The position numbers were made by a program, and so were the translations under genes. From Mycolicibacterium tusciae JS617 (GTDB lineage Bacteria; Actinomycetota; Actinomycetes; Mycobacteriales; Mycobacteriaceae), in the NCBI RefSeq assembly GCF_000243415.2, contig NZ_KI912270.1, forward strand, positions 4,154,001-4,218,000: a DNA stretch of 64,000 nucleotides, in the 5' to 3' direction. The notes under the pieces were generated by a model. It saw only the letters and a list, made by a program, of their open reading frames with translations. It was not told where the DNA came from and did not search any database. This document shows positions 27,101 to 48,150 of the stretch, piece after piece. Each line of letters starts with the position of its first letter. Position 1 is the first letter of the stretch.

Positions 27101-27504
27101 CCACGCGTGCGGCCGCAGGCCCGCCGGCTGCGCCCGCGCGCGAGGAGCGCGAGATCGAGTCGTGGCTCGGCGAATTGCGCGGCACCGCGGCACCTGCGGG
27201 TCAACCCACGCCGCCGCCGACCAGAAGGCCGTCGACCGAATCCACCAGGGCGATGCCCGAGGGACGGCTGGGGACCCCCCCGCAAGGCAGGGGACGTGCG
27301 CCGGACCCAGGTCCCGGCAACGAACCGACGACGGCGATGCCCGCGCAAAACGATGATGCCGACCCCACGACCGCAATCCCGGCCCAACGACCACAAGATA
27401 CGGACGCTGCGACCGAGAAGCTCAACGCTCAAGACGACAAGCCGAAGCGTCGCGGTGGCGGAATGAGCGCGCAGGATCTGTTGCGCCGCGAGGGACGGCT
27501 CTAG
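24199..27504 (+). CDS. mmpL3: MmpL3 trehalose-monomycolate transporter with a DUF4190-like insertion
   Basis: 1,101 residues from GTG 24199, preceded by AGGAGC. It is an RND-family transporter that moves trehalose monomycolate across the inner membrane and is essential in mycobacteria. Proton-relay Asp-Tyr pairs are D256 (GIAVDYGLFM) and about D751 (LSTDYEVFLVSRMVEAR). Typical MmpL3 has the second Asp near 645; the difference is an insertion at about residues 356-470 holding NAFALASIPTGLLLPPVGIA, RIRATGEQGAQFALIGLVLG (DUF4190 pattern) and a third very hydrophobic stretch. The C-terminal 250 residues are a disordered Pro/Ala-rich tail with TTAMPAQ/TTAIPAQ repeats, ending SAQDLLRREGRL as usual. 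Confidence 0.95.
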   Translation: MFAWWGRMVYRYRYSVIGIMVALCVGGGIFGIGLGDRVTQSGFYDEGSQSVHASVTADEAYGRDRTSHVVAILTPPDGKKVDDPAWMKKTTDELNQLVADHEDRMVGWVGWLRAPNSEDPTVQQMKTSDMSTTFISVPLKGDDDDTILKNYQAIEPDLRKVNGGNIQLAGLQPLASELTGTIGEDQKRAEVAAIPLVCVVLFFVFGGVIAAALPGVIGGLTIAGALGIMRLLAEVMPVHFFAQPVVTLMGLGIAVDYGLFMVSRFREEIAEGYDTEAAVRRSVMTSGRTIMFSAVILVASSVPLLLFPQGFLKSITYAIIASVMLAAILSITVLPAALAILGSRVDALGVRWLVKFAEPDPIRSDPANPRTNAFALASIPTGLLLPPVGIALGHLARKRIRATGEQGAQFALIGLVLGYITLLGGLAYGTMALKDADVIGTALYWVMLGVVIFVVVVVVGVVLARYVPLARTPIVWWLNWLAEKTQKTKTRAEVEKGFWGKLVNVVMKRPVAFAAPIAIAMIVLIIPLGQLALGGISEKYLPPDNSVRTAQEDFDKTFPGFRTEPLTLVIQNTDGQPVTDQQVAEVRNKAMTVPGFIEPDGDPSKMWQARGGESTDPSVRVIQNGLINRNDAAKKVDELRSISPPRGLMISVGGIPALEQDSIHALFDKLPLMGLILITTTTILMFLAFGSVVLPIKAAVMSALTLGSTMGVLTWMFVDGHGSGLMNYTPQPLMAPMIGLIIAVIWGLSTDYEVFLVSRMVEARERGMSTAEAIRIGTATTGRLITGAALVLAVVAGAFVFSDLVMMKYLAFGLLIALLLDATIVRMFLVPAIMKLLGDDCWWAPRWMKRIQERLGLGETELPDERKRPAVREHAENPEALVGAGAPIPASPSGRPRPPHDPTHPAAEGASRPGAATRAAAPPRTNAPSSTGTTRMPSRRAPADEPATTRLSTAKNAVRNAVTNAAAATRAAAGPPAAPAREEREIESWLGELRGTAAPAGQPTPPPTRRPSTESTRAMPEGRLGTPPQGRGRAPDPGPGNEPTTAMPAQNDDADPTTAIPAQRPQDTDAATEKLNAQDDKPKRRGGGMSAQDLLRREGRL

Positions 27505-27860
27505 CCGGTCAGGTAGACCTTGCGCAGCGTCTCGGTGACCGTCCACACCGTCTCGGTGCCTGCCGCCAAGCGAACGATGTCACCCGGGCCGACCTGCAAG
27601 CCCGGGGTCTCGTCGGCGAACTCGATCGTCGCCGATCCCGACAGCACGATGAAGATCTCGTCGACCTCCACGTCGGTGGCGACGCCCGGCGTCATCTCCC
27701 AGACACCGACCTCGACACCCTGAAAGACCGTCAGCTCTGCGGCGCCGGTGCGCGGATCGCCTGTCACCGACTGTTCCGCGGCGACGGGTTCGTGGGACAA
27801 CTCCAGGCCGATGGCGGCGACGACACTGTTCGGCTGCAACTCGGTCAACGTCCGGGCCAC
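27501..27860 (-). CDS. Small cupin-domain protein
   Basis: About 119 residues from GTG 27860 (start uncertain; AGGAG directly abuts this GTG). The single cupin barrel shows GVEVGVWEMTPGVATDVEVD, EIFIVLSGSATIEF and VGPGDIVRLAAGTETVWTVT, the DUF861/EutQ-like pattern in which Glu replaces some metal-binding His. It may bind or isomerise a small metabolite or act as a sensor. It overlaps the flavoprotein gene by 16 bases and is last in the long minus-strand operon. Its stop overlaps the convergent mmpL3 stop in a shared CTAG. Confidence 0.78.
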   Translation of the reverse strand: MARTLTELQPNSVVAAIGLELSHEPVAAEQSVTGDPRTGAAELTVFQGVEVGVWEMTPGVATDVEVDEIFIVLSGSATIEFADETPGLQVGPGDIVRLAAGTETVWTVTETLRKVYLTG

Positions 27861-29455
27861 CTCCTGCGGCTTCGCGCGTCGCGGAGCACTTCCCTGGCCG
27901 CGTTGCGGCCGTTGGCCCCTGTGACACCGCCACCGGGATGGGTCCCGGCGCCGCACAGATAGAGCCCCTTGATCGGTGTCCGATACTTCGCCCAGCCCCG
28001 CACCGGGCGCATGAACAGCAACTGGTCCGGCGACATGTCGCCGTGCAGGGCGTGCCCACCGGTCAGGCCCATCACCCGCTCCATGTCCAGTGGACTGAGC
28101 ACCTGACGATGCACGATCAGACCACTCAGGCCGGGGAAATGCGCTTCCAGTTGCGCGATGGCCTCATCAGCGCGGGTCTCCTTGATGTCGTCCCAGTTCT
28201 CGTCGCGCAGATGGAACGGCTGGGAATTCACATCGATGGTCGCAATATGCTTGCCTGCGGGCGCCAGGCTCGGGTCATGCACTGTCGGAAAGACGATCTC
28301 GATGTGGGAGTCACGAACCGCCAGACCGTACTGCGCCTGCGCCTGATGCAGGTCCATCTCCGCGATGAACGGATTCACCTCCATGATGCCGCGATGATAG
28401 GGCTGCACCCCTTCACGCGGATGTCCTGCGACATAAGGCAATTCGGACAGCGCCAGATTGATCTTCATGCTGGTGCCCATACACCGGTACGCCTCCACCT
28501 GCCGGACGAAGTCATCGGGCAGATCGGTGCGGTCGCACAGCGTCAGGAACGTGTGCTTCGGGTCAGCGTTCGACAGCACCCGGGTTGCGGTGATCTCCTC
28601 GCCGGTGACCAGCCGCACCCCGGTTGCCTGTCCGCCGCGAGTCACGATGCCTTCCACCGCCGCGTCACAACGGATTTCGGCGCCGGCTTCGCGCGCCGCG
28701 GCGGCCATCGTCTCCGTCAGCACACCCATCCCGCCGCGCACGAATCCCCACTGCCGGACCCCGCCGTCGCTCTCCTCACTGGCGTGGTCATGCAACAGCA
28801 CGAACGCCGTGCCCGGCGTCGACGGTCCCGCCACACTGTCGTTGATCGCGTGCCAGCCCAGCGCCGCCTTGACGTGGTCGCTCTCGAACCGCTCGGCCAG
28901 GATCTGGTGCGCGCTCGAGGTGAACAACCGGGCCAACTGGTCGAGATGATTGCGCGTGCGCAGGCCGACGCGGCCCAGCTTCGCCAGCCCGCGCAGGTCG
29001 TCCACGCTCTTCACCCGGGGGTCGGGAGCGGTCCAGTCGAAGACCGGCAGCACCTGCTGGACCATCTCGCTGAGGTCCTCTTCGAACTTGGGCAGCGCTC
29101 GGGCGTCGTGTTCGGAGAAGCGCTTGGTGTTGGCCACGTTCTCGGCCATGTCGTCGCCGAGGTAGTAGCTCGCACCGTCGGGGTAGACGTTCAACGTCGG
29201 TCCGGCCGGGTCGACGTGGATGCCGCGCCGCTCCAGAGCCATGTCCTGCCAGATCGCCTCGCGCAGCATCGAGAGCACGTATGCCCCGGTCGACGCGCGA
29301 TAGCCGGGTGCGAAATCCTCGGTGTTGCAGGCGCCGCCGACGAACGGGCGCCGCTCGAGGACCAAGGGTTTGAGCCCGGCCCGTGCCAGGTAGAAGGCGG
29401 CGACCAGCCCGTTGTGGCCGCCGCCGACGATGACCGCGTCGTAGCAAGCGCTCAT
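27845..29455 (-). CDS. FAD-dependent oxidoreductase, PYROXD2/phytoene-desaturase-like
   Basis: 536 residues from ATG 29455. N-terminal Rossmann motif DAVIVGGGHNGLVAAFYLAR, then LERRPFVGGACNTEDFAPGY; C-terminal FAD-closing motif IKGLYLCGAGTHPGGGVTGA. This is the NAD(P)/FAD oxidoreductase group that includes PYROXD2 and carotenoid desaturases. No carotenoid genes are nearby, so a role as amine- or lipid-type dehydrogenase in the island is more likely. It lies 28 bases after the IlvD/Edd-like gene in the same direction. Confidence 0.82.
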   Translation of the reverse strand: MSACYDAVIVGGGHNGLVAAFYLARAGLKPLVLERRPFVGGACNTEDFAPGYRASTGAYVLSMLREAIWQDMALERRGIHVDPAGPTLNVYPDGASYYLGDDMAENVANTKRFSEHDARALPKFEEDLSEMVQQVLPVFDWTAPDPRVKSVDDLRGLAKLGRVGLRTRNHLDQLARLFTSSAHQILAERFESDHVKAALGWHAINDSVAGPSTPGTAFVLLHDHASEESDGGVRQWGFVRGGMGVLTETMAAAAREAGAEIRCDAAVEGIVTRGGQATGVRLVTGEEITATRVLSNADPKHTFLTLCDRTDLPDDFVRQVEAYRCMGTSMKINLALSELPYVAGHPREGVQPYHRGIMEVNPFIAEMDLHQAQAQYGLAVRDSHIEIVFPTVHDPSLAPAGKHIATIDVNSQPFHLRDENWDDIKETRADEAIAQLEAHFPGLSGLIVHRQVLSPLDMERVMGLTGGHALHGDMSPDQLLFMRPVRGWAKYRTPIKGLYLCGAGTHPGGGVTGANGRNAAREVLRDARSRRRWPGR

Positions 29456-29483
29456 CGCTGCCCTCGGCTCTTCGCGCAGGCGC

Positions 29484-31139
29484 TCATCGCGGCATCACGG
29501 CACCCTGGCAGGCCGGCGCGACGTTCTGTGCATAGAACGCCAAGTATCCCGATTTCACATTGGGTTCGCGCCGTACCCACACCGAGCGGCGCTGTTCCAG
29601 CACCTCGTCAGGCACATCCAGGTCGAGGCGCCGGTCGTCGAGGTCGATCAGGATCCGGTCGCCGTCCTCGACGAGCCCGATGGGCCCGCCGTCGGCGGCC
29701 TCGGGCCCCACGTACCCGATGGCCGGTCCGTGGGTCGCTCCTGAGAACCTGCCGTCGGTGATCAGCGTGACACTCTCGGACAAGCCCATGCCCACCACGG
29801 CTGACGTCGCTCCGAGCATCTCCCGCATCCCGGGTCCGCCCCGAGGGCCCTCGTTTCGGATGATGATCGCCATGCCAGGGGTGACCTCGCCGCCGAGTAT
29901 CCCCTCGATCGCGGACTCCTCGTCCTCGAAGACCTTGGCCGTGCCCTCGAACTTCCACATGGCTGGTGCGACGCCAGAAGCCTTCACCACCGCACCGTCG
30001 GGCGCCAGGCTCCCCCGCAGGATGAAGATCGCCCCTTCCGGCGCGATCGGGTTCTCTCGAGACGCCAGCAGCTCGGGGTTCAGATTCTCGGCCGCAGAGG
30101 CGATCTCGCCGGTGGTCTGCCCCGAGACGGTGATCGTCGACTTGTTGACGAGGTCGCCGAGTTCGGCCAGCACCGCGGGCACACCACCCGCCGCGTGCAG
30201 GTCTGTGACACCCCACGGCCCCGACGGCGCCAGTTTTGCCAGCGTCGGCGTCTGCCTGCCGATGCGATCGATCGTGTCGAAATCGAGCTCGATGCCCGCC
30301 TCCTTCGCCATCGCGATGAAGTGCAGCACCAGGTTGGTCGAACCCGACACCGCAAGCGCGACCCGCAGTGCGTTCTCGAACGCCTCGGCGGTCAGGATGT
30401 CGCGGGGGCGCACATCGTCGCGCAGCAGCTCGACGATGCGCATTCCGGTGTACTTGGCCGCCCTGATCTGATTGTTACACCCGGCGGACAGTGTTCCGGT
30501 GTGCGGCAACGACATTCCCAGTGCCTCGCAGTAGATGCCCGCAGTGTTGCCCGATGTCAGGGTGTCACCTGCGCCAGGCCCGGGGAAGAGTTCGTCTTCC
30601 CAGTGCTTGAGGGTGACCTCGTCCAGTTCGCCGCGCACCACCTGGCCGACTCCGTCGTAGACCGTCTCGAGGAACAGCTTCTTCCCGCGGTATACGCCGT
30701 ACGGCGTCGGGCCTGCATACAACAGGATCGACGGCAGGTTGAGCCGGGCGGCCGCCATCACCATGCCGGGTGTCGGCTTGTCGCCACCGGTCAGCAGAAC
30801 CAGTGCGTCGACACCGTGGCCCTCGGCCATCAGTTCGATCGAGTCGGCGACGACGTCCCGGCTGGGCAGCACGTAACGCATGCTGCGGGCTGCGAACGCC
30901 TCGCTGTCGGTGACGTGGAAGGTGTTGAACTCGATGGGGGTGCCGCCCGCCATCCGCACACCGGACTTGACCGCGTCGACGAGGGTGCGCAGGTGCGCGT
31001 TCTCAGGGGAGAAGTCCTGATACGTGTTGGCGATCATCACCAGCGGCTGGCTGAGTTCCTCGTCTGTGAAGCCGGCGCCCTTGATCCAGGCCCGCTGCAG
31101 CGAGCGGTCGGTGCCTTCGAACTGATCTCTGCTACGCAT
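29484..31139 (-). CDS. IlvD/Edd-family dehydratase homologue lacking Fe-S cysteines
   Basis: 551 residues, aligned by eye along the IlvD/Edd family: N-terminal [78 protein letters not shown] and active-site [20 protein letters not shown]. Normal members bind an Fe-S cluster with Cys in TPCN, (N/G)CDK and a Cys before the TANTM-like motif. Here these read SPEN, GGDK and GDTLTSGNT, so all three ligands are gone, while the catalytic Ser region is kept. Authentic dihydroxyacid or sugar-acid dehydration is therefore doubtful. It lies 3 bases after the kinase/PLP-enzyme gene. Confidence 0.85.
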
Positions 31140-31142
31140 CTG

Positions 31143-33407
31143 TCATCCTCGTTCCTCTGAAAGGCGTTCTTCTGCAACTGTTTCGATGGCGTCAAGCACC
31201 ACCGAGGCCACCTTCTGAACCTGTTCGGGCGTGATCACCAGTGGTGGTCGGATCTTGAGTACGTCAGATCGGGGTCCGGTCGCGCCGATGAGCACGCCGT
31301 TGCGGCGCACCGCTTCGAGTACCGCGCCGGCCAGCTGGGTCCCGCCGTCGAGCTGCACCCCGATCAACAATCCGCGGCCGCGCACCTCCCGGTGCTCGCC
31401 GGCCAGCCGGTCCCTCAGCAGTACCCCCATGGCAGCCGCATGCTCGACGAGGTTCTCGTCGGCGATGACGTCGAGCACCGCCGACGCGGCGGCCGCGCCG
31501 ACGGGGCCGCCGGCGTAGGTGCTGAAGAACTCGGTGTGCGCGGCCAGCGCTTCGACGTCGGCGCGGCGCGCGATGACCGCCGCGATCGGGTAGCCGTTGC
31601 CCATGGGTTTGCCCAGGGTGACGATATCCGGCGCCAGTCCGGCGCCGTCGAAGGACCAGAGGTGATCGCCTGCGCGCCCGAAGCCTGCCTGCACCTCGTC
31701 GGCCACCACGATGGCGCCGGCCTGCCTGGCGGCTTCGGTGAGTGAGCGGTGATACCCCCTGCCGGGCACCAGGATTCCGTCGCTGGTGTACGTGGGATCG
31801 ATGAGGAGCGCGGCCGGCCGATGCCCACGCAGCGCGAGCCGCTCGATGGCGGCGTCGACACCGGGCTTCGGATCCGGGCCGTGCGGTGCCGGGAACCGTT
31901 CGACGTGATCGGGTATCCAGCCGCCACGCCACTGTTCGGGTGAGAAGGCGGTCGTCGCCGTGGTGACCCCGTGATACGCGAAGTCCGTGACGAGCGCGCC
32001 GGTCCGGCCGGTGACGGCGGTCGCGATCCGCCAGGCGACGTCGGTCGCCTCACTGCCCGAGTTCACGAACAGCACCGTGTCCAGACCCGAACCGGCCGGC
32101 ATGCTCGCGACCAGCCGCTCGGCGAGATCGATGGCGTGCGGATGCAGGTAGCGCAGGTTGGTGCTCAGCAGCCGGGCCTGGTCGGCGATCGCCGTGGCCA
32201 CCCGCGGATGGGCGTGGCCGACCACGGGCACGTTGTTGTAGGCGTCGATGTAGCGCAGCCCGTCGGCATCGAAAAGCTCTGCACCGCTGCCCTTCACCGG
32301 CTCGAGCGGATCCCGGTAGGTCAGTGGCGCCAGCGCCGACCCGAAGACGGCCTGGCGGCGCGTCAGGAGAACCGCACGAGCCGACCGCGGCCGTGGCGCT
32401 CCGAACGCGGCCGCAACGTCGCCGGGATCAGCGGCGCCGAGTTCGCGCAACATGTTCCATGCGCCCGCGTCCCAACTCTGCAGATACTCGGCGTTGCGCG
32501 GGTGCAGATCGCGCCGGGCGGCCGACAGGCTCAGCGCGATCGCGTTCCGCAGCATGAGCGTGTCGGCGAGCACGGCCCGCTCCACCGGCTCCAGCAGGCT
32601 GATCGCGGTGTAGCCGTCGAGGAACAGCGCGATCGTGGACAGAAGGTCCCGACCGGTGCGCGTCGAGCCCGCCGAGGCCAGCGCCGCCGCGACGTCGGCC
32701 ACCAACGCGGTATGGGTGAGATCGCCGAAATCGATGATGCCGCAGATACGGTCGTCATCGCCGAGCAGCAGGTTGTCCAGTGTCAGGTCCGAGTGGACCG
32801 GCTGTGCCCGCAACGTCGCCCACAGCGGCGCCACGTTGTCCTCGAACCGGTCGAGCGCGGCGCGCACCAAAGCCCGGTCGTCGGCGTCGGCGATGGCGTC
32901 GGTCATCGTGCGGACCTCGTGGCGGGCCTCGACGTGCCAGAGCAGCCGGCGCTGCGCCGCGGGGTGGAAGAAGCCCCGCAGTGCGAGTCCGAGCCGCGCG
33001 GCCACGCCGCCGAATTCCTTGACCCGGGCCGGTTTCAGTGCAGCACCAGGCCGTGAGGCCGCACCGGGCAGCCGGTCGTACAGCCGGACCAGCCGATGCT
33101 GCGACAGTCCATACAACTCGCCGGTGACGGTCGGCAGCGGTACGGCCATCGGCAGCGTGGGATCCACCCGTTGCACCCATATCGCGGCCTGTCCTTCGAG
33201 ATCGACCTCGGCGGCACGCACGGAAAGATGCGAGATCTTCACGATCCGCTGCACTCCAGAGTCGTTGGCCAGCAAGGCGGTCTGGTCGCGCTCGCTGTCG
33301 AAATGCGCACGCACGGTGCCGTGGAACCCGAACTGCTCGCCCACGGCGGCGGCAATCGCGTCATCGTCAAATGCCGTCGCGGGATCGGCGAGCAGGTCGC
33401 CGCTCAT
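31143..33407 (-). CDS. APH-type kinase fused to class-III PLP enzyme (candidate amino-alcohol kinase/phospho-lyase)
   Basis: 754 residues from ATG 33407. Residues about 1-330 are an aminoglycoside-phosphotransferase-type kinase with the catalytic loop HSDLTLDNLLLGDDDRICGI and IIDFGDL. Residues about 340-754 are a class III aminotransferase-fold enzyme: NSGSEATDVAWRIATAVTGR, VVADEVQAGFGRAGDHLWSF and the PLP Lys in DIVTLGKPMGNGYPIAAVI. Hydroxylysine kinase (HYKK) and the phospho-lyases for phosphoethanolamine and 5-phosphohydroxylysine belong to exactly these two families. The fusion thus suggests phosphorylation of an amino alcohol followed by elimination of phosphate and ammonia to an aldehyde. 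The start overlaps the permease stop (TGATG). Confidence 0.87.
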   Translation of the reverse strand: MSGDLLADPATAFDDDAIAAAVGEQFGFHGTVRAHFDSERDQTALLANDSGVQRIVKISHLSVRAAEVDLEGQAAIWVQRVDPTLPMAVPLPTVTGELYGLSQHRLVRLYDRLPGAASRPGAALKPARVKEFGGVAARLGLALRGFFHPAAQRRLLWHVEARHEVRTMTDAIADADDRALVRAALDRFEDNVAPLWATLRAQPVHSDLTLDNLLLGDDDRICGIIDFGDLTHTALVADVAAALASAGSTRTGRDLLSTIALFLDGYTAISLLEPVERAVLADTLMLRNAIALSLSAARRDLHPRNAEYLQSWDAGAWNMLRELGAADPGDVAAAFGAPRPRSARAVLLTRRQAVFGSALAPLTYRDPLEPVKGSGAELFDADGLRYIDAYNNVPVVGHAHPRVATAIADQARLLSTNLRYLHPHAIDLAERLVASMPAGSGLDTVLFVNSGSEATDVAWRIATAVTGRTGALVTDFAYHGVTTATTAFSPEQWRGGWIPDHVERFPAPHGPDPKPGVDAAIERLALRGHRPAALLIDPTYTSDGILVPGRGYHRSLTEAARQAGAIVVADEVQAGFGRAGDHLWSFDGAGLAPDIVTLGKPMGNGYPIAAVIARRADVEALAAHTEFFSTYAGGPVGAAAASAVLDVIADENLVEHAAAMGVLLRDRLAGEHREVRGRGLLIGVQLDGGTQLAGAVLEAVRRNGVLIGATGPRSDVLKIRPPLVITPEQVQKVASVVLDAIETVAEERLSEERG

Positions 33408-34249
33408 CACGTCGCCATCCGGTTGAGCTGCGCCATCCGGTAGGCGAGGAGCGCGAACACCCCGGACAGCCCCAGCATGACGAGGTTCATCGCCGAACCG
33501 GTACCCCAGTCGCCTTCCTCCAGGATCACATCGCGGATGCGCTGGCCGAGCATGTATGACGACGGGCCACCCAGAATGTCGGCAGCGACGAAGTCGGCAT
33601 ACATCGGGATGTACACCAGGATCGCCGCGACCAGGATGCCCGGCGCGGCCAACGGCACCAGGATGCGTCGGAACTGATGAAACCATCCCGCGCCCAGATC
33701 GGTTGCGGCTTCCAGTGTTACCGGCTCGATGGCCTTCATCGCGGCGTAGATCGGAATGGTCGTATAGGTGATGTAGGACGTGACGAGGGCGATCACCACC
33801 GCAAACGGGCTATACAGCAACCAGTCGATGGGTGGGCCAGGCAGGATTGCGTTGACCAGGCCGTTGCGGCCGAGGATGACCTGCCAGGCGTAGACCCGCA
33901 CGACAGGCGCGAGTTCGTCGGCGACCACGATCGCCAGCAGCAGGAACAGTTCGCGCTTGCCTGCCTTGAAGACCATGTAATAGGCCAGCGGAAGTGCGAT
34001 CAGCAGCATCACGGTCATCGCGATGGTGACGATGACGAAGGTGGTCAACGCGATCTTGAGATTCAGTGGGTCGGTGACAACATCCCAGTAGTGGTCGAGG
34101 GTGGCCCCGCTTGCCGCGTTAGGGGGGAACTTCAGGACGCTCATCTGGACCAGCACCGCGAACGGCACGAGGAAGAGCACCACAAGGGCGGTGGTCGGCG
34201 CCGCGAGAACCGCCAGTGCACCACGGGTTTCGGCACCGCGGCGCGTCAT
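33407..34249 (-). CDS. ABC transporter permease, PotB-like
   Basis: 280 residues from ATG 34249, overlapping the neighbouring permease stop. Six hydrophobic segments; the cytoplasmic EAA loop reads MKAIEPVTLEAATDLGAGWF followed by HQFRRILVPLAAPGI. The protein is of the spermidine/putrescine PotB type (first permease). With the PotC-like gene and the lipoprotein upstream it forms an importer. No ATPase gene is in this operon; the one at 45613-46764 may serve both transporters. Paralogous to the permease at 42056-42952. Confidence 0.88.
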   Translation of the reverse strand: MTRRGAETRGALAVLAAPTTALVVLFLVPFAVLVQMSVLKFPPNAASGATLDHYWDVVTDPLNLKIALTTFVIVTIAMTVMLLIALPLAYYMVFKAGKRELFLLLAIVVADELAPVVRVYAWQVILGRNGLVNAILPGPPIDWLLYSPFAVVIALVTSYITYTTIPIYAAMKAIEPVTLEAATDLGAGWFHQFRRILVPLAAPGILVAAILVYIPMYADFVAADILGGPSSYMLGQRIRDVILEEGDWGTGSAMNLVMLGLSGVFALLAYRMAQLNRMAT

Positions 34250-36205: not shown

Positions 36206-36241
36206 GCGTGACTCCTCGCTTTGTCCCCTGCCATCCAGGAA

Positions 36242-36270
36242 CATTATTTCGCAGACCATAGATTGTCAAC
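36242..36270 (-). promoter_or_regulatory. Promoter of the SBP-permease-kinase/lyase operon
   Basis: On the minus strand TTGACA (plus-strand 36265-36270), a 17-base spacer and TAATGT (plus-strand 36242-36247) form a near-consensus sigma-A promoter, about 37 bases before the GTG at 36205 with its ribosome-binding site. The -35 box lies inside the operator palindrome. Confidence 0.65.
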
Positions 36271-36277
36271 AATCTAC
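36260..36277. promoter_or_regulatory. Operator 1, perfect 8+2+8 palindrome
   Basis: TAGATTGT-CA-ACAATCTA. The arms are exact reverse complements. The same right arm recurs at 37014-37021 and 48143-48150. It covers the -35 box of the operon on the minus strand. The adjacent FadR/FCD regulator gene (36309-36986) is the obvious binder. Confidence 0.72.
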
Positions 36278-36308
36278 GATTCGGCTGGATCGCAGTGAAC
36301 GGCGTGGA

Positions 36309-36986: not shown

Positions 36987-37003
36987 GCGGTGAGTATACG
37001 GAG

Positions 37004-37021
37004 GCGAATGTTGACAATCTA
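37004..37021. promoter_or_regulatory. Operator 2 between the regulator and the enolase-superfamily gene
   Basis: GCGAATGT-TG-ACAATCTA. The right arm matches operator 1 exactly; the left arm matches 5 of 8. It overlaps the plus-strand -35 box and lies in the spacer of both divergent promoters. Confidence 0.6.
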
Positions 37022-39535: not shown

Positions 39536-39536
39536 G

Positions 39537-40712: not shown

Positions 40713-42052
40713 CGGGCCGCGACAGCTTCCTCGACGGCCTCCAGCACCCGACCGAGCGCCTCGGCGTACGCCTGCGGCGGCATCACCAACGACGGCTGGA
40801 TGTTGAGGCTGGTCGTACTGGCCACTACCAAAACCCCGCGCTTGATACATCCTTCGGCTACGGCGTCCTGCAGTTCGAGATCACGTTCCTTGGTGGCTTT
40901 GTCCTTGACGAACTCGATGCCGACGAATCCGCCCTGTACCCGGACATCGCCCACCTGCTGGATCTGGTCCACGAGCGGAACCAGCATGTCGACCGCAATA
41001 TGGTGCAGCGCACGCACATTGGACAGCACGTCCTCGCGTTCCATCAGGTCCAGATAGGCCAGCGACGCGGCGCACGCTGCGGGCAGCCACGACCAGGTGC
41101 TCCCGGTGGACAGGTTGCTGAATCCACCAAGTGCACGTTCGGTGCCCAGCAGTGCCCCGATGGGCATGACACCGCCGCCCATCGCCTTGCCCAGACACAT
41201 CAGATCCGGCTGCAGGCCCCACAGATCGGCTGCAAACACCTCTCCCGTCCGGCCGAACCCGGTTTTCACCTCGTCGAGGCAGAGCAGCCAGCCGTACTCC
41301 CGGCACAACTCAGTGAGCGCAGTCCAGAAGGTATCCGGCGGCGAGATCACTCCGCCGGACCCGAGGATCGGTTCGATGATCACGCCCGCCACCTCTGATG
41401 GGTCGACCAGGTGGAAGAGCACATGGTCACGTAGGTAGTCCACCCACGGATCACCGGAGCCTCCGACGCGGGGTTCGCCGAAGGGATTGCGGTACGCGTT
41501 CGGGTAGGGAACATGGACGAATCCACTTGCCAATCCACGCAGTTCGCGGCCGATCTCGTACTGCTCGGCACCCAGCGACGCCGTGGTGGTGGTCTCACCG
41601 TGGTAGGCGCCGAAGAAGCCGATGATCACCGGTCGCCCGGTGGCTCTTCGCATGACCCGCACCGCGGTCTCCACCGACTCGGTGCCGTTGAGTGAGATGT
41701 CCACCCGGGTGAGGCCCTCCGGAGCCAGACTGAGAATCCGTTGCGCCAGCGGCAGCATCCACTCGTGGAAAACCGCGTGGCTGTCCTCGTTACCGAAGCT
41801 CTGCAGCGCCGCCGCGGCGGGCTCGACGATCTCGGTGCGTCCGGCACCCATCGGGACCGAGGCCGAGGAACTCACCAGGTCGACGAACACCTGCCCGTCG
41901 ACGTCGGTGACGGTCCAGCCCGATCGTGATTGCGCCACAAAGGGATAGCCGTCACCGACCAGTCCCGGATAGAAGATCTTGTCGTAGGCCGCCAACAGTT
42001 CGGTGCTTCGCGGGCCGGGCACGGCGGCGGGCACCGGTGGGAGCAGCGTCAT
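40709..42052 (-). CDS. Class-III PLP aminotransferase
   Basis: 447 residues from ATG 42052. Motifs: SLNGTESVETAVRVMRRATG, GFFGAYHGETTTTASLGAEQ, GVIIEPILGSGGVISPPDTF, LCLDEVKTGFGRTGEVFAAD and the PLP Lys in LMCLGKAMGGGVMPIGALLG. Such enzymes transfer the omega- or alpha-amino group of diamines, amino acids or amino alcohols, or act as phospho-lyases. It is only distantly similar to the C-terminal half of the fusion at 31143-33407. Three bases separate it from the permease gene, and it is coupled to the Kbl-like gene. Confidence 0.88.
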   Translation of the reverse strand: MTLLPPVPAAVPGPRSTELLAAYDKIFYPGLVGDGYPFVAQSRSGWTVTDVDGQVFVDLVSSSASVPMGAGRTEIVEPAAAALQSFGNEDSHAVFHEWMLPLAQRILSLAPEGLTRVDISLNGTESVETAVRVMRRATGRPVIIGFFGAYHGETTTTASLGAEQYEIGRELRGLASGFVHVPYPNAYRNPFGEPRVGGSGDPWVDYLRDHVLFHLVDPSEVAGVIIEPILGSGGVISPPDTFWTALTELCREYGWLLCLDEVKTGFGRTGEVFAADLWGLQPDLMCLGKAMGGGVMPIGALLGTERALGGFSNLSTGSTWSWLPAACAASLAYLDLMEREDVLSNVRALHHIAVDMLVPLVDQIQQVGDVRVQGGFVGIEFVKDKATKERDLELQDAVAEGCIKRGVLVVASTTSLNIQPSLVMPPQAYAEALGRVLEAVEEAVAAR

Positions 42053-42055
42053 GGT

Positions 42056-42952
42056 TCAGGTCTCCAGTCTGTTGATCTTGGCGAGTCGGAAGGCGATGGC
42101 GGCCACCACACCCGCGGCGAGCAGCAGCAGATTGCTCAGTGCCGCACCGCGAGCGAGGTCGCCTTGTTCGAGAATCAGGTCATTGACGGCCTGGCCCAGC
42201 ATGTAGCCGCTGGTGCCGCCGACCAGGGTGGGGGTGGCGAAGTCGGTGAACAGTGGAATGTAGACCAGTAGCACGGCCATGAAGATCCCCGGCGCCGCCA
42301 GGGGCAGCAGGATCCGCCGGGTCATCACCCACCACCCGGCGCCCAAGTCGGCTGCGGCCTGAAACAGGGTGGTGTCGATGGCTTTCATCGCCGCATACAG
42401 CGGAATCACCGTGTATGTGATCCAACTGGTGGACAGCACGATGATGACCGTCACCTGGTTGAACAGCAGCCAGTCGATGGGCTGGTCGATCACACCGATA
42501 GCCTGCAGGAAGCCGTTGATGATCCCGTTGCGGCCCAGCAGCATTCGCCAGGCGTACACCCGGACCACCGGGTTGAGCTGGTCGAGTAACACGATGCCCA
42601 GCAGCAGCGGGATCTCGAAGCGTCCAGACTTGAACGCCATCACATACGCCAGCGGCACACCGATGACCAGCTGGACCACCATCGCGCAGGTGGCGATGAA
42701 GACGGTGGTCAGCGCCACCTTGTGGTACAGCGGATCGGTGAGGATGGCGACGTACGCGTCCAGCGACCACACACTCTGCCCGCGCCCCACTTTCATGCCG
42801 AGGCTGATCAGGAACAGGATGATCGTCGGCACGAAAACCAGGAGCACCAGCACGGCCATCGGGGCAGACAGGTAGCCGAATGGTAGCCAGGTCCTGCGTC
42901 GGCGTGCCGGCGCCGCCTCGGCCGCAGCCGAGATCTCCTGCACCGCTGTCAT
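42056..42952 (-). CDS. ABC transporter permease, PotB-like (second system)
   Basis: 298 residues from ATG 42952, overlapping the PotC-like gene (ATGA). Six hydrophobic segments and the EAA-type loop MKAIDTTLFQAAADLGAGWW. Clear paralogue of 33407-34249, sharing LNPVVRVYAWRMLLGRNGI and a late YMLGQAVNDLILEQGD. Part of the complete second importer. Confidence 0.9.
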   Translation of the reverse strand: MTAVQEISAAAEAAPARRRRTWLPFGYLSAPMAVLVLLVFVPTIILFLISLGMKVGRGQSVWSLDAYVAILTDPLYHKVALTTVFIATCAMVVQLVIGVPLAYVMAFKSGRFEIPLLLGIVLLDQLNPVVRVYAWRMLLGRNGIINGFLQAIGVIDQPIDWLLFNQVTVIIVLSTSWITYTVIPLYAAMKAIDTTLFQAAADLGAGWWVMTRRILLPLAAPGIFMAVLLVYIPLFTDFATPTLVGGTSGYMLGQAVNDLILEQGDLARGAALSNLLLLAAGVVAAIAFRLAKINRLET

Positions 42953-43806
42953 CGCAGGCCTCCCGCCACCATGTCGGCGAGTGATTCCTCGGTCCCCCGG
43001 CGCCGGTTGACGGCCTGTAGCGCTGACCACATGCCGTACACGACGGCCACCTGCACCAGCGAGACCGCCGTGGAGACGGCATTCACGATTGGCAGGTTGT
43101 CCGAGCGTCGCAGCACCGAGTACACCCAGACCGGGAAGGTCTGTTCATAGCCGCCGGTGAAGAAGCTGATCTCGAAGTTGTTGAAGGACCACGCAAACGA
43201 GAAGATCAGCGCGGCGCCCAAGGTGGGTGCCAACTGCGGCAGGACCACCTTGGTCATCAGCTGCCACTGCGAGGCGCCGAGGTCGACGGCCGCCTCCTCC
43301 TGAGATCGTTGGAAGCGCACCAATTGCGCCGACACCAGCGCGGTGACCAAGGGGAACGTCACCGCGATGTGCATGGCACCGACAGTCAACAGTGACAACT
43401 CGATGCCCAACGAGGCGAACAACAACAGCCCGCTGACGCCCATGACCAGCCACGGGATCACCAGCGGTGCACCGGCGAGTCCCGACCACAGCCCACGGGT
43501 GGGAAATCGGAAGCGGGTGATGGCCCATGCCGTCGATGTCCCGAGCACCACGCAAAGCGGTGAGATGACCGCGGCGAGGACAGTCGAATTGCGTAGCGAG
43601 TCAGCCACATCGGGATCGGTGAAGGCCTCGACGTACCATCTCCACGTGAAGCCCTCGAACGGCAACGCGATGATGGACGAGTCGTTGAACGAGAAGACCG
43701 CGAGCAGGACGATGGGTCCGACGAGGATTACCAGTACCACCGCCACGAGCGCTATGGCCAGCACGGCGCCCGTGCGATTGGTGCCCCTGCTACCCGACAG
43801 GGTCAC
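42949..43806 (-). CDS. ABC transporter permease, PotC-like (second system)
   Basis: 285 residues from GTG 43806, overlapping the binding-protein stop (GTGA). Motifs VFSFNDSSIIALPFEGFTWR and the loop FQRSQEEAAVDLGASQWQLM. Paralogue of 34246-35073. Upstream in-frame sequence overlaps the binding protein and is not used. Confidence 0.9.
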   Translation of the reverse strand: MTLSGSRGTNRTGAVLAIALVAVVLVILVGPIVLLAVFSFNDSSIIALPFEGFTWRWYVEAFTDPDVADSLRNSTVLAAVISPLCVVLGTSTAWAITRFRFPTRGLWSGLAGAPLVIPWLVMGVSGLLLFASLGIELSLLTVGAMHIAVTFPLVTALVSAQLVRFQRSQEEAAVDLGASQWQLMTKVVLPQLAPTLGAALIFSFAWSFNNFEISFFTGGYEQTFPVWVYSVLRRSDNLPIVNAVSTAVSLVQVAVVYGMWSALQAVNRRRGTEESLADMVAGGLR

Positions 43807-44879
43807 CCCCCGGCCTCGATCTCCTGCCACGCGGACCGCCATACGTCGGCGTTGTCGGGTTCGAACTGCGGGATGGTGCCTTCCAGGTCGGACGGGTTCG
43901 CGGTCTTCCGGAATTCTTCGGAGACCTCGGGCAGCCCCTTGGGATTGGTGATGACGTAACCGAGATCCCCGATGGCACCCTGCGCCGTCGGCGAGATGTA
44001 GTAGTCGATGAACGAGTACGCGGCGTCGACGTTGGCGGCGTCGGCACTGATGCCGAGCCCGCACATCCACGACATCGTGCCCTCCTTGGGAGCCACCCAG
44101 GTGACGTTGCCGCCGTTGGCGTTGATCATCTCGGCAGTGCCGCGGCCACCGTTGGCCACGATGACCTCACCGGACTTGAACAGATTGGACATATCGGAGT
44201 CACCCTCGGCAAGGGTGCGGAACTGTCCGTCAGCCATCGCGGTCTGGATTTTGTCCTTCATCTGCCCGATCTGCTCATCGGTCATCTCCAGCGGGTCGGT
44301 GATCCCTGAGGCCAAGCCGGTGACCCCGAGTCCGGTCAGCCAACCGTTGTCCATGGCGACCTTGCCGCGGTACATCGGATCGAACAGTGCCGTGTAACTG
44401 TCGATACCGCCGGGGATGGCGTCGTTGTCATAGATCATTCCGTGTGGACCTGCCGAGGAGATCGCCATCGTGACATCACCGTCGATGACCACCCCATGGG
44501 CCTCGCGGAAGGTGGGATCAAGAGACTCCCAGTTGGTCAGCTTCGACGTGTCGATCGGGGCCAGCAGTTTGTCCTTGTGCAGTGGTTTGGCCTCGTCCAG
44601 GCACACCTCGACGACGTCGGTGCTAAAGCCTGCGTTGAGCTTGGCCGCCCCCTCGTCGACGCTCTCGAAGGTGGCTGTCCTCAGGTCGAGATCCGGATTC
44701 GCGCTCGTGAAGGGCCCGATGATCCCGGGATCGATGGTGTCCTCATAGGTGAAGGTGCGCAGTTCACCACCCGTGGCAGTGTTCTCGCCGCCGCCACCAC
44801 AGGCGGTCAATACGAGCAGCGCGCCCGACGCGCAGGCAGCCGCCTGCGTGTAGCGCCGGATAATGGGATGTGGTGTCAT
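43803..44879 (-). CDS. ABC substrate-binding lipoprotein, PotD-like (second system)
   Basis: 358 residues from ATG 44879. Lipoprotein signal SGALLVLTACGGGG with lipobox LTAC. The mature part resembles PotD: LRTFTYEDTIDPGIIGPFTS, VVEVCLDEAKPLHKDKL, GMIYDNDAIPGGIDSYTALF and SGEVIVANGGRGTAEMI. It shares layout with the protein at 35093-36205 but differs enough to bind another or modified ligand. Overlaps the PHP gene by 4 bases, an unusual partner for a binding protein. Confidence 0.88.
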   Translation of the reverse strand: MTPHPIIRRYTQAAACASGALLVLTACGGGGENTATGGELRTFTYEDTIDPGIIGPFTSANPDLDLRTATFESVDEGAAKLNAGFSTDVVEVCLDEAKPLHKDKLLAPIDTSKLTNWESLDPTFREAHGVVIDGDVTMAISSAGPHGMIYDNDAIPGGIDSYTALFDPMYRGKVAMDNGWLTGLGVTGLASGITDPLEMTDEQIGQMKDKIQTAMADGQFRTLAEGDSDMSNLFKSGEVIVANGGRGTAEMINANGGNVTWVAPKEGTMSWMCGLGISADAANVDAAYSFIDYYISPTAQGAIGDLGYVITNPKGLPEVSEEFRKTANPSDLEGTIPQFEPDNADVWRSAWQEIEAGG

Positions 44880-45616
44880 CTCTCCTCCAAAAGGGTTCCG
44901 TTGAGCAGGGTTTCGCAGCGGTCTCCGATGCGTTGGTGCAGATGGTCATAGACCGATCGCAGGTCGGCCTCCCCCCGTTCATGGGCGTCCGAAGCGACCA
45001 GATCGACCAGTCCCTCGTCCAGAAGCCGGTGCGCCTCGGCGGCGACCGTCGGCCCGTCGAATCCGAGTAGGGCGCCCGAATCGACCTGGAGGAGTGCGCC
45101 GTTGGCCTTCAGCGCATCGGCGAAGTCCCGGTCACCGGGGAACAGGAATGCGCGGCGCTCGGGGTGGGCGACGATGGGCCGCAGACCGGCGGCGGTGACG
45201 CGCGCGATGTAGTCGAATATGCCCGGGTCGTGCTCCATCGGGATGTCGTCGGGTCCGTCGACGAGAACCATGTCGGTGCCGGGAAGCCGCCAGCGCGCCG
45301 GGTCGGCGCGGAACTCCGCGGTCGCGGGCCGCGGCGCCAGCTCATAGGCCATCCGCAGTTGCGGACAACCAGCCACCTTGTCCGCGAGTTCGAGCAGCCG
45401 GTCGAATGCCCGGCTCAGGTCGTCGTCACGTTGTGGCGACCAGGGGAATCGTTCGTCGATATGCGAGGTGACGAACAGCAGCCCGGTACCGCCGGCCGCG
45501 GCATCCTCGAGCATCTGCAGGCTGTCGTCCTCGGTGGTCGGGCCGTCGTCGGCACCGGCGAGCAGGTGGGCGTGACAGTCCACCCAGCCCGCCGATTCCG
45601 AAGTCCGTGCAATCAC
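44876..45616 (-). CDS. PHP-domain phosphoesterase (CpsB/YwqE-like)
   Basis: 246 residues from GTG 45616, overlapping the ATPase stop (GTGA). The PHP metal sites are visible: WVDCHAHLLAGADDGPTTED (H-x-H and DDGP), LFVTSHIDERFPW, RPIVAHPERRAF and VASDAHERGE. CpsB-type PHP enzymes are Mn-dependent phosphotyrosine phosphatases, but there is no capsule-kinase gene here. In an operon with an alkaline phosphatase and an importer, hydrolysis of a small phosphoester is at least as likely. Confidence 0.8.
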   Translation of the reverse strand: MIARTSESAGWVDCHAHLLAGADDGPTTEDDSLQMLEDAAAGGTGLLFVTSHIDERFPWSPQRDDDLSRAFDRLLELADKVAGCPQLRMAYELAPRPATAEFRADPARWRLPGTDMVLVDGPDDIPMEHDPGIFDYIARVTAAGLRPIVAHPERRAFLFPGDRDFADALKANGALLQVDSGALLGFDGPTVAAEAHRLLDEGLVDLVASDAHERGEADLRSVYDHLHQRIGDRCETLLNGTLLEER

Positions 45617-46764
45617 TCGGCGGTCGCCGCCAAAGGTCCGATGACGTGGGTGCTGGCCGCGGGCCACGACAGCCGCACCCGTGAACCGCGGCCGATCGCG
45701 CGCAGATCGGTGTCGTCACTGAGCTCGTGGACGACGAGTTGCTCGGTGGTCGGCAATTCCACGGTGACGTGGGTGGTGGATCCGCAGTAGACGATCTCGG
45801 ACACCACCCCGCCGACCGTGCTGTGGTCGTCGGCCACGTCGACGTACTCCGTCGGGTGCAGATAGATGCGCTCGGGGCGGACGGTGACCTGTATGGGTCC
45901 ATCACCCGCCGACACCGCCGGGGCGACGAGGCGGTCGCCTTCGCCGAGGACGCTGACGTGGTGGACCCCGATACGCTGAGGGTCTTTGAGTACCAGGAGG
46001 TTCGACGTCCCGATGAAGCCCGCCACGAACGCGGTGGCCGGCCGCTCGTACAGGGTGCGCGGATCGGCGAGTTGTTCGATGCGGCCCTGATTCATCACCG
46101 CGATCCGGTCCGACAGCGTCAGCGCCTCCTCCTGGTCGTGGGTGACGTAGAGGAAGGTGGTGCCGGTGCTGCGGTGCAGCCTGCCCAGTTCGAGCTGCAT
46201 CTCCCGGCGCAGCTGAAGGTCGAGCGCGCCGAGTGGCTCGTCCAGCAGCAGTGCCTTGGGACGGTTGACCAACGCGCGCGCCAGCGCGACCCGCTGGCGT
46301 TGACCACCGGACAACTGGGTCGGGCGCCGGTCTGCCAGGGCACTGAGCCGCATCGACCCCAGCGCCTCGGCGACGCGCTCCGTACACTCGCGGCGGGCCA
46401 GGCCCTTGACCTTGAGGCCGAAGGCCACGTTGTCGCCGACGGTCATGTGGGGGAACAACGCGTAGTCCTGGAATACGAGGTTGACCGGCCGGCGCGCGGG
46501 CCGGGTCGAGGTGATGTCCTCATCGCCGAGCAGCACGCGGCCCGAGGTCGGATGCTCGAAGCCGGCGACCATCCGCAGCGTCGTCGTCTTCCCGCATCCG
46601 CTGGGACCCAGAAGTGAGAAGAACTCACCCGCCCCGACCTGGAAATCGACACGCTCCACCGCATGCGAGCCGCCGTCATAGGACTTGCTGACGTTCTCGA
46701 ACGTGATGGAGCTGCCGCCTCGGGCCAGCGCGGTCGTTTCGGGAAGGGTGGCGAGGTCACTCAC
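45613..46764 (-). CDS. ABC transporter ATPase, PotA-like
   Basis: 383 residues from GTG 46764. Walker A GPSGCGKTTTLRMVAGFEH, Q-loop FQDYALFPHM, signature LSGGQRQRVALARAL, Walker B LLLDEPLGALD and H-loop YVTHDQEEALTLSDRIAVMN. The C-terminal 130 residues form the TOBE regulatory domain typical of PotA/FbpC. It powers the second importer and may also serve the ATPase-less one at 33407-36205. Confidence 0.93.
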   Translation of the reverse strand: MSDLATLPETTALARGGSSITFENVSKSYDGGSHAVERVDFQVGAGEFFSLLGPSGCGKTTTLRMVAGFEHPTSGRVLLGDEDITSTRPARRPVNLVFQDYALFPHMTVGDNVAFGLKVKGLARRECTERVAEALGSMRLSALADRRPTQLSGGQRQRVALARALVNRPKALLLDEPLGALDLQLRREMQLELGRLHRSTGTTFLYVTHDQEEALTLSDRIAVMNQGRIEQLADPRTLYERPATAFVAGFIGTSNLLVLKDPQRIGVHHVSVLGEGDRLVAPAVSAGDGPIQVTVRPERIYLHPTEYVDVADDHSTVGGVVSEIVYCGSTTHVTVELPTTEQLVVHELSDDTDLRAIGRGSRVRLSWPAASTHVIGPLAATAE

Positions 46765-46780
46765 GCGGACTCCTGAATGC

Positions 46781-48094
46781 TCAGTTCTGGCCCCACAATT
46801 CGGTGATTACCTCGTAGACATACGTGTTGGGGTGCACGCCGGTGAAGCGTTCAGCCAACGGGCCGGCCGCGGTCACCGGCACCATCGTTCCGGTGTGTTC
46901 CGCCGTCGTCCAGTCCACCTTGAACTTGCGGTCGGTGCCCTTGATCGTGAACGGACCACTGCGCTGGGGCACCCCGCCATTCGGCAGCGGCATGTTCTCC
47001 GGGGCGGGCGCCCAGTACGGCACCGGGTCGTCGGCGACCTGATCGCTGTTGGGTTCGGGTTCGCCGTCCTCGAGCACGTTCTCGATCGTCATGCCGCCGG
47101 TCTCATGATCGGCCGTCACGATCAACAGCACCTCGGGATGTTCCTTCTGGTACTCGGTGATGACCTTCACCATGTTGTTCACCGACTCGCCGGCCAGCAT
47201 CATGTTCTGCGCGTCGTGCTCGTGGCCGTCAGAATCCAGATCGTCACTCTCGATGACCAAGAAGAACCCTTTGTCGTTGGCACCGAGGATGTCGAGCGCC
47301 TTGGACACCAACTTCTCCGGGGCGACGTAGTACGGATCGGTGTTGTAGTCGTAGCCCTCGATCTCCGTGGACCGCCGCTTGGCGCTATCCTGCACCAGCG
47401 CAAGCGCTTTCGGCCCGCTCAGCGCGTCGAAAGTGGTCTGATCGTAGGCGTAGGAGTAGCCGTCGGCCGCGGCACGTGCCACCAGGTTCTCCACACCCTC
47501 GCTGGCGTCGTCCTCGCCCTCGTCGGGAATCTTGCCCGGCTCACCCTCGGGATACCAGTACTTCTCCCCGCCGCCGAACAACACGTCGACCCCGCGATCC
47601 AGGTAGCCCTTGGCGATGTCGACTTTCAGGTCCCGGTCCGGCACCGGCGAACCGAACGATGCCAACGTGGCATTGGTGACGTCGTGATCGTTGACCAGCC
47701 CCGTGGCCATGCCGCGATCCTTCGCTATGTCCATGAGCGTAGGCACCTCCTGGCCGTCAGGACCCAACCCGGTTGTCCCGTTGGGCACCTTCTGCCCGAT
47801 CGCCCATGCGGTCGCGCCGGCGGCGGAATCGGTCACCGCGTACTCCGGGTCACCTGGAATCGTGTCCAGGAAGCCCGAGTACGGCAGCGCGTCCATCGGC
47901 TGACGCTCGTCGAGCCCGTACAGGTAGTACTGGATCGCCGTGCGCTGCTGCGGCCCCATCCCGTCGCCGCTGAGAATGATGACGCTGGGGTTCTCCGGTA
48001 ATCGTTCCTCGGCGGAGTTACCACACGCACTCACGGTTGCAGAACCGATTATCAACGCGGCCACTCCCGCGTACATACGCTGCATCGAAGGCAC
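46781..48094 (-). CDS. Alkaline phosphatase, secreted lipoprotein
   Basis: 437 residues if it starts at GTG 48094, six bases after the -10 box; ATG 48085 is the next start. Signal AALIIGSATVSACGNSAEE with lipobox VSAC. PhoA-type active site: ILSGDGMGPQQ (metal Asp), nucleophile in VTDSAAGATAWAIGQ, ESDDLDSDGHEHD, TADHETGG and DWTTAEHTG. It hydrolyses phosphomonoesters outside the membrane. It leads the importer operon, which suggests that a phosphorylated substrate is dephosphorylated before uptake. Regulation appears tied to operator 3 rather than to a recognisable Pho box. Confidence 0.92.
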   Translation of the reverse strand: MPSMQRMYAGVAALIIGSATVSACGNSAEERLPENPSVIILSGDGMGPQQRTAIQYYLYGLDERQPMDALPYSGFLDTIPGDPEYAVTDSAAGATAWAIGQKVPNGTTGLGPDGQEVPTLMDIAKDRGMATGLVNDHDVTNATLASFGSPVPDRDLKVDIAKGYLDRGVDVLFGGGEKYWYPEGEPGKIPDEGEDDASEGVENLVARAAADGYSYAYDQTTFDALSGPKALALVQDSAKRRSTEIEGYDYNTDPYYVAPEKLVSKALDILGANDKGFFLVIESDDLDSDGHEHDAQNMMLAGESVNNMVKVITEYQKEHPEVLLIVTADHETGGMTIENVLEDGEPEPNSDQVADDPVPYWAPAPENMPLPNGGVPQRSGPFTIKGTDRKFKVDWTTAEHTGTMVPVTAAGPLAERFTGVHPNTYVYEVITELWGQN

Positions 48095-48100
48095 GTCGGA

Positions 48101-48129
48101 ACGCTACCCAGCCAAAACAGTGGTGTCAA
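48101..48129 (-). promoter_or_regulatory. Promoter of the alkaline phosphatase operon
   Basis: On the minus strand TTGACA (plus-strand 48124-48129), 17-base spacer and TAGCGT (plus-strand 48101-48106), six bases before GTG 48094. A leaderless mRNA is predicted. Confidence 0.55.
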
Positions 48130-48132
48130 TGA

Positions 48133-48150
48133 TAAATTGTTGACAATCTA
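48133..48150. promoter_or_regulatory. Operator 3 upstream of the alkaline phosphatase operon
   Basis: TAAATTGT-TG-ACAATCTA; right arm identical to operators 1 and 2, left arm 7 of 8. It lies just upstream of the -35 box (about -39 to -56), unlike operators 1 and 2, which overlap their -35 boxes, so the same regulator could activate here. Confidence 0.65.

Follow-up and report, generated by a model that had tools for sequence, protein, structure and literature searches.

A putative FCD regulon with a kinase/phospho-lyase fusion and an IlvD homologue lacking the cluster cysteines in Mycolicibacterium tusciae JS617

We analyzed an 18-gene island in a stretch of 64,000 nucleotides from Mycolicibacterium tusciae JS617 (contig NZ_KI912270.1, positions 4,154,001 to 4,218,000; the whole stretch is called the window, and coordinates refer to it unless a genome is named). 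The island surrounds the gene of a GntR/FCD regulator and carries a palindromic operator at three places. Gene families were assigned by Pfam and NCBIfam profile matches on the window proteins. One unit, read on the minus strand from 48094 downward, consists of genes for an alkaline phosphatase (46781..48094), a PotA-type ATPase (45613..46764), a PHP-family (CpsB/CapC-type) phosphoesterase (44876..45630), the solute-binding protein SBP2 (43803..44879), a PotC-type and a PotB-type permease (42949..43800 and 42056..42976; the second permease pair), AT3, a class III aminotransferase/racemase-family enzyme dependent on pyridoxal phosphate (PLP) (40709..42052), and a Kbl-like enzyme of the alpha-oxoamine synthase family (39537..40736). 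Another minus-strand unit runs from 36205 downward and encodes the solute-binding protein SBP1 (35093..36205), a PotC-type and a PotB-type permease (34246..35073 and 33407..34246; the first pair), a kinase/phospho-lyase fusion (31143..33404), an IlvD/EDD-fold protein (29484..31139), an FAD oxidoreductase (27845..29455), and a cupin (27501..27860). In the middle, the regulator gene (36309..36986, minus strand) is divergent from genes for an enolase-superfamily (MR/MLE) enzyme (37046..38179) and a semialdehyde-type aldehyde dehydrogenase (38186..39535), both on the plus strand. The island thus contains two importers and a single ATPase.

The alkaline phosphatase shows PhoA-type features, namely the Alk_phosphatase Pfam domain (180.5 bits) and the active-site serine motif DSA, and is likely a lipoprotein (VSACG lipobox, by eye). 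The fusion protein combines an APH-fold kinase (HSDLTLDN and IDFGD motifs) with a class III phospho-lyase-like domain that carries the PLP lysine in LGKPMGNG. AT3 was nearest to alanine/serine racemase and related entries, and the Kbl-like enzyme to 2-amino-3-ketobutyrate CoA ligase. The FAD oxidoreductase is CrtO/phytoene-dehydrogenase-like with models below cut-off, and the cupin is of the Cupin_3, EutQ-like type. The enolase-superfamily enzyme, with K-x-H and Asp/His motifs, was nearest to 4jhm. Its relatives at 37% identity occur as tandem pairs beside BCCT transporters (L130, L131), which suggests betaine-like substrates for that branch.

The palindrome, TAGATTGT-N2-ACAATCTA, was present in three copies, as the initial annotation had reported; only the coordinate of the first was one base off (36260-36277 there). 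This copy, O1 (36259..36276), is perfect and encloses the -35 box of TTGACA-N17-TAATGT on the minus strand, in front of the SBP1 unit. O3 (48133..48150) has one mismatch and lies 3 nucleotides upstream of TTGACA-N17-TAGCGT, on the minus strand before the alkaline phosphatase unit. O2 (37004..37021), between the divergent regulator and enolase-superfamily genes, has three mismatches (5 of 8 bases in the left arm, the right arm exact) and overlaps TAGATT-N17-TATACT of the regulator gene. All these boxes were read by eye. The TTGACA-N17 promoter that had been predicted at each site could be read, with TANNNT -10 boxes, at the SBP1 and alkaline phosphatase sites, but not at the middle site, where the plus-strand TTGACA has no good -10 and the better pair points toward the regulator gene. 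A strict Escherichia coli sigma-70 scan of 36100-48300 returned no promoter, where shuffled sequence gave 1.4 on average.

The palindrome was not common in the genome: over 7,306,413 bases, these three places were the only matches at up to three mismatches. At the same threshold, 100 shuffles of the window gave none (mean 0, largest 0), and a control pattern read backward matched 4 places genome-wide. The three-mismatch O2 is therefore not significant on its own; it is backed by its position and by a three-mismatch site in the matching intergenic region of another genome, G179. That the two strong sites, O1 and O3, are chance occurrences is very unlikely.

Islands of the same kind were found in three other genomes. 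When 248 genomes sampled from the genus were searched at the protein level, close orthologues of the fusion occurred in G179, G033, and G133 at 72-74% identity (in G133 over residues 192-746; 59-72% by tblastn), and the next fusion match after them was at 44%. The regulator, at E ≤ 1e-50, was found in exactly the same 4 of the 248 genomes, so that islands in which the regulator and the units do not co-occur, named in the initial annotation as the case that would speak against it, did not arise. Absence of a gene is meant here as no tblastn match within the fetched island region, not genome-wide. By this measure the G179 region holds 17 of the 18 gene types (aldehyde dehydrogenase not found), that of G033 holds 16 (dehydrogenase and cupin not found), and that of G133 holds 13 (dehydrogenase, enolase-type enzyme, CpsB/CapC-type PHP protein, and first permease pair not found). 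As importer parts, G133 has both SBPs, a single permease pair, and a single ATPase; its island also has a second FCD gene and a PHP-like protein of a different kind (by eye). The latter, at G133:C1:3915446-3916288 (L118), belongs to another family (by eye) and follows an operator. Twelve types were present in all four islands: alkaline phosphatase, ATPase, SBP2, the second permease pair (two types), AT3, the Kbl-like enzyme, the FCD regulator, SBP1, the fusion, the IlvD-like protein, and the flavoprotein. The gene set was otherwise as first described, but the semialdehyde dehydrogenase, for which none of the three other islands gave a match, does not appear to be a core island gene.

The operator recurred with these genes. 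Over the three other island regions (36,001, 34,700, and 40,000 bases; 110,701 in total), nine places matched at up to four mismatches (3, 2, and 4, respectively), all upstream of island-type genes. We then viewed 17 intergenic stretches in the four islands, a set that includes the three sites of the window and one stretch picked for its already known site, ahead of the PHP-like gene of G133. Twelve held an operator at up to three mismatches and two a weaker variant (six mismatches between the FCD and enolase-type genes of G033, five before the first FCD gene of G133); none was found in three, all in G133, before the second FCD gene, the flavoprotein gene, and the cupin gene. In G133, the operator ahead of the PHP-like gene (3915404) shares bases with the end of the open reading frame before it. 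At the alkaline phosphatase promoter, the operator ends 3 nucleotides before TTGAC(A/G)-N17-TANNNT in all four islands, while the -35 box TTGACA, followed by N17-TANNNT, lies inside the operator at the SBP1 gene in the window, G179, and G033 and at the fusion gene in G133 (both by eye). The earlier proposal of a single regulon with a common operator around the FCD regulator was thus borne out by the four-island comparison: regulator gene, operator at several promoters, and a 12-type gene core occur together in four genomes. On this comparison, the island is a predicted co-inherited FCD regulon.

The island lies between two genes that we take to be mmpL3 and Rv0205; the AI-2E domain of the flanking gene was confirmed by Pfam, and the alkaline phosphatase gene adjoins the AI-2E gene. 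A search with the latter matched 58 of 60 genus genomes, and 30 loci were fetched. In 27 of the 29 loci other than that of the window, mmpL3 sequence lay within the same 3.0-4.2 kb as the AI-2E gene (about 1 kb away in L138), and in two there was no mmpL3 match. The G179 island occupies the same insertion point as that of the window. Since the 27 include the junction of G033 itself (L161), the G033 island is sited elsewhere; the G133 island lies among other genes. The insertion first proposed therefore holds for this genome and is not part of the system. Because two of the four islands are at the mmpL3/AI-2E junction and two elsewhere, the island looks like a mobile cassette; the GC (guanine plus cytosine) composition across it showed no boundary. 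In L138 (G039), a different insert of about 1.0 kb (487-1497) with a DUF559-like open reading frame (by eye) occupies the same junction, which may receive insertions repeatedly. This insert was rejected as a remnant of the island, having one 19-base match only.

The regulator has an N-terminal GntR domain (Pfam, 57.6 bits) and a C-terminal FCD domain (90.9 bits), the layout of the FadR subfamily. According to the passages on operators in PMC4494728, sites of this subfamily consist of TKGT/ACMA boxes with a spacing of 2-3 nucleotides, 2 in HypR, MdcY, PrpR, and others. The island box matches this consensus with 2-nucleotide spacing, as TTGT-N2-ACAA in O1 and O3 and ATGT-N2-ACAA in O2. The system thus resembles regulators of the HypR, MdcY, and PrpR type in its GntR and FCD domains, TTGT-N2-ACAA palindrome, divergent placement beside its own gene, and three-histidine site, and differs from them in regulon content and in arms extended to TAGATTGT and ACAATCTA. 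The three-histidine motif of the effector site consists of H143, H187, and H209; all five FCD proteins of the islands have it, and so do the three paralogues. Its spacing is 44/22, compared with 40/22 in TM0439 (134, 174, and 196) and 48/22 in LldR (148, 196, and 218), the positions being those given in the relevant part of PMC4746285. As described there, the FCD protein CitO, whose comparable site is Asn-His-His, binds citrate with the help of a metal. Since CitO does so at this kind of site, the predicted inducer probably carries a carboxylate, by analogy.

The C-terminal domain of the fusion scored best against the solved phospho-lyases 5g4i (270.8 bits), presumably the Arthrobacter phospholyase, and 6tor (236.5 bits), which we take to be human ethanolamine-phosphate phospho-lyase; the next entry reached 159.7. 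Kinase motifs and the PLP-lysine motif are both present in the one protein, and from this closeness and the lysine motif the domain is predicted to be a class III phospho-lyase (EC 4.2.3.2 type). Ordinary use of phosphoethanolamine and ethanolamine (or 1-amino-2-propanol), in which phosphatase, kinase, and phospho-lyase would yield acetaldehyde or propionaldehyde, agrees with these closest solved relatives. However, plain ethanolamine could be handled by another phospholyase-like gene that the host already has (C4:439428, 39% over the C-terminal domain), and such genes are widespread, occurring in 118 of the 248 genus genomes at E ≤ 1e-60. Ethanolamine use would also seem to need neither an FCD sensor of the carboxylate type nor the enzymes of the IlvD-like, Kbl-like, and enolase types, and we regard it as unlikely. 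Among the matches listed, alignments start at about residue 286, except for one each in G000 (the host), G179, G033, G133, and G041.

The joining of an APH-fold kinase to a class III PLP domain is also what the island has in common with hydroxylysine kinase and ethanolamine-phosphate (phosphohydroxylysine) phospho-lyase. In animals, hydroxylysine is reportedly degraded by such a kinase and phospho-lyase (attributed to Veiga-da-Cunha, 2012, a reference of PMC8154272). Catabolism of 5-hydroxylysine or phosphohydroxylysine to aminoadipate semialdehyde by this route would suit the FCD sensor with its carboxylate substrate, and PotD-type import of a diamino acid is plausible. On the other hand, none of the three other islands gave a match to the dehydrogenase that would be expected as the next enzyme, and the Kbl-like and IlvD-like enzymes and the phosphatases would be left unexplained. 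The island fusion, moreover, differs from that system in being embedded with an exported phosphatase, two importers, and Kbl-like and IlvD-like enzymes. The hydroxylysine route therefore has a small chance of being the right one.

Of 79 loci from the fusion search other than the record of G179, 17 had a Pot-type permease or SBP match near the kinase and lyase, all proteobacterial by title. Two sets of six loci were read more closely. In L067, L080, and L093, separate kinase and phospho-lyase genes recurrently stand with PotD-type ABC components, an FCD gene (26-27%), and 5-oxoprolinase-like genes (PxpB/PxpC, by eye). Plasmid searches with the fusion, alkaline phosphatase, AT3, flavoprotein, and enolase-type enzyme gave matches below 60% only, of which seven neighbourhoods were read.

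The SBPs are both related to PotD and PotF. In the alignment, their W-x-C-G (WTCG in SBP1, WMCG in SBP2) stands opposite W-x-D (WMD or WFD) in the chains of PotD, PotF, and Lmo0810. The Asp of the W-x-D motif contacts the substrate in PotD and PotF. The importers are thus like PotABCD and PotFGHI in component families but differ in having Cys for this Asp in both SBPs, and because of this replacement a polyamine substrate is unlikely. None of the listed Pot equivalog cut-offs was reached; only the subfamily model potA was, by the ATPase. A pathway for phosphonates of the aminoethylphosphonate type would agree with several model matches: among NCBIfam models, phnR_burk fits the regulator best, the permeases and ATPase match aminoethylphosphonate transporter models, AT3 matches PbfA, and the aldehyde dehydrogenase matches a phosphonoacetaldehyde dehydrogenase model. 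These scores are far under the cut-offs (141 vs 271.5, 225 vs 525, and 235 vs 636), a C-P cleaving enzyme domain (PhnX, PhnA, PhnJ, or oxidative) was not found by Pfam in the 18 proteins, and such a pathway would not require the kinase; we give it very little credence. A biosynthetic island, in which the alpha-oxoamine synthase, aminotransferase, kinase, and flavoprotein would make a small molecule, is likewise very improbable. Kbl-like and CrtO-like enzymes do occur in biosynthesis too, but the two importer sets, the surface phosphatase, and the operators at importer promoters point to uptake, and an exporter domain was not found by Pfam among the 18 proteins.

The IlvD homologue appears to be the most unusual part of the island. 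The IlvD/EDD fold and Pfam domains are present, and one NCBIfam model labels the protein dihydroxy-acid dehydratase. Nonetheless, E46, G119, and G191 replace the three cysteines of the canonical IlvD of the host (G000:C4:4220860-4222524, 2.9 kb past the window end), which retains all three, and the Fe-S ligand set is thereby missing. D120, K121, E430, and S466, at the Mg-site and Ser positions, are kept. In IlvD, the three cysteines bind the Fe-S cluster, the Asp/Lys and Glu belong to the Mg site, and the Ser is catalytic. IlvD-fold and enolase-superfamily enzymes also use carboxylate substrates. Among the 120 best matches (the window protein included), 119 have lost two cluster cysteines (Glu46 and Gly119 positions; one gap) and keep the Mg-site and Ser residues. 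The third position is of the Gly191 type in 51 (again including the window protein), Cys in 68, and Ser in one. The island protein therefore differs from IlvD/EDD dehydratases such as dihydroxy-acid dehydratase at all three positions, Cys1 to Glu46, Cys2 to Gly119, and Cys3 to Gly191, and it is predicted to belong to a conserved branch without the cluster site.

Strict searches found the IlvD-like protein in 2 of 397 genomes of the order (E ≤ 1e-180) and in the same 2 among 345 genomes of the class (E ≤ 1e-200), both of the own genus. It was found in none of 297 genomes of the order of G951 (Sinorhizobium locus), none of 147 of the genus of G930 (Nocardioides locus), and none of 49 fusion-locus genomes, in searches that had no positive control. 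Since relatives at 64-83% identity occur in other genera and these searches were uncontrolled, the negatives show rarity in the samples only. The protein also occurs in plasmid contexts, in Rhodococcus JS3073, Ensifer CTYH.Ch1, and Arthrobacter NicSoilB8 (a partial match over 68% of the length; context read from the annotation only). A regulator is nearby in each, FCD by BLAST in JS3073 and CTYH.Ch1 and annotated GntR in NicSoilB8. On the JS3073 and CTYH.Ch1 plasmids, a HAD-type protein lies nearby (by eye), and the fusion was not found in these two contexts by BLAST. None of the three plasmids pointed to a particular pathway. A dehydratase near a kinase/lyase pair in Variovorax SRS16 was rejected as a relative, as it has normal cysteine motifs (by eye). 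It is possible, though we hold it only tentatively, that a phosphorylated hydroxy-amino acid is broken down by a new pathway encoded in the island and that the cluster-free IlvD/EDD branch, spread over Actinomycetota and Alphaproteobacteria, eliminates with the Mg site only, perhaps with phosphate or an amine rather than water as leaving group.

The reading that we favor, with modest confidence, is that of a catabolic cassette that moves horizontally, is controlled by one FCD regulator, and acts on an amino-alcohol compound bearing a carboxylate. Through its metal site, the FCD protein would sense a metabolite with a carboxylate group, and it would repress all units and its own gene until inducer is present. 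Outside the cell, the surface alkaline phosphatase would strip phosphate from an organophosphate, and the two related binding proteins would pass the product or products to PotABC-type permeases served by one common ATPase. Inside, the kinase domain would phosphorylate the hydroxyl beta to the amine, and the fused phospho-lyase domain would expel phosphate and ammonia to leave an aldehyde or keto group. AT3, the flavoprotein, the Kbl-like enzyme, and the cluster-free IlvD-like enzyme would then cut the carbon skeleton, the Kbl-like enzyme ideally yielding glycine and an acyl-CoA. The substrate is most likely a carboxylate-bearing amino-alcohol compound, either a hydroxylated amino acid or a conjugate, and not a polyamine or plain ethanolamine. 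Of the scavenging role first suggested, the kinase and phospho-lyase stand at the core, it is plausible that the compound used is an amino alcohol or amino acid in phosphorylated form, and the polyamine and plain-ethanolamine versions are disfavored.

Several points weigh against the cassette as proposed. The SBP1 gene of G133 has an operator without a clear -10, the second FCD gene of G133 has no operator, and the operator position at the phosphatase promoter, upstream of the -35, is compatible with activation too. Of the 32 loci L035-L066 (mostly actinobacterial and related metagenome-assembled genomes, many on short contigs), none had a permease or SBP match beside the fusion. The carboxylate read from the metal site is carried over from FCD relatives, and the flavoprotein, IlvD-like enzyme, AT3, and Kbl-like enzyme are not tied to one reaction sequence. 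The operator, finally, is not confined to islands. When its 16-base core was sought at up to one mismatch in 39 hand-picked genus genomes, 3 with the island and 36 without, 11 of the 36 island-free genomes had one to three core sites. The island carriers had 2 (G033), 4 (G133), and 2 (G179), of which 7 of the 8 were inside islands, and a reversed-core control gave 0 in the 39 genomes. Four extra-island places were read (G011, G021, and G027 from among the 11, and G033:C6), three of which (G011, G021, and G033:C6) adjoin FCD genes 31-36% identical to the island regulator; the recognition-helix segments are similar (VSRGPVRE/VSRGPLRE). The operator type is thus predicted to belong to a group of FCD regulators and not to be private, although in this genome it marks the island alone.

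Such paralogous loci using the same core, together with the two importers in the island, would agree with two unrelated pathways that have a common FCD-type operator through family specificity. Yet all four islands, which occupy three chromosomal settings, keep the two halves together, and in G133 the halves are rearranged and mixed with each other, which makes two unrelated pathways quite improbable. As to the neighbours at the paralogous loci, aminotransferase- and succinate-semialdehyde dehydrogenase-like genes stand at L173 (G011) and L174 (G033:C6), and Asp/Glu-racemase-like genes (by eye) at L175 (G021) and L174. Around the G027 sites, the neighbours look like amine-catabolism genes (by eye), and an FCD match was not found there. 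In G027:C18:24000-63999 (L171-L172), three cores are spread over 28 kb, with genes resembling those of ureohydrolase, aminotransferase, aldehyde dehydrogenase, and glutamine synthetase nearby (mostly by eye); this may be a further amine regulon using the same box.

For the cassette under one FCD regulator, these results define a question of regulon size, in that one inducer should switch on 18 genes. Proteins automatically named dihydroxy-acid dehydratase would include a conserved branch unable to hold the usual cluster, which bears on their annotation and on IlvD-fold chemistry without iron-sulphur. For the scavenging of nitrogen and phosphorus in mycobacteria, the island would contribute an additional module, composed of an exported phosphatase and a kinase/phospho-lyase.

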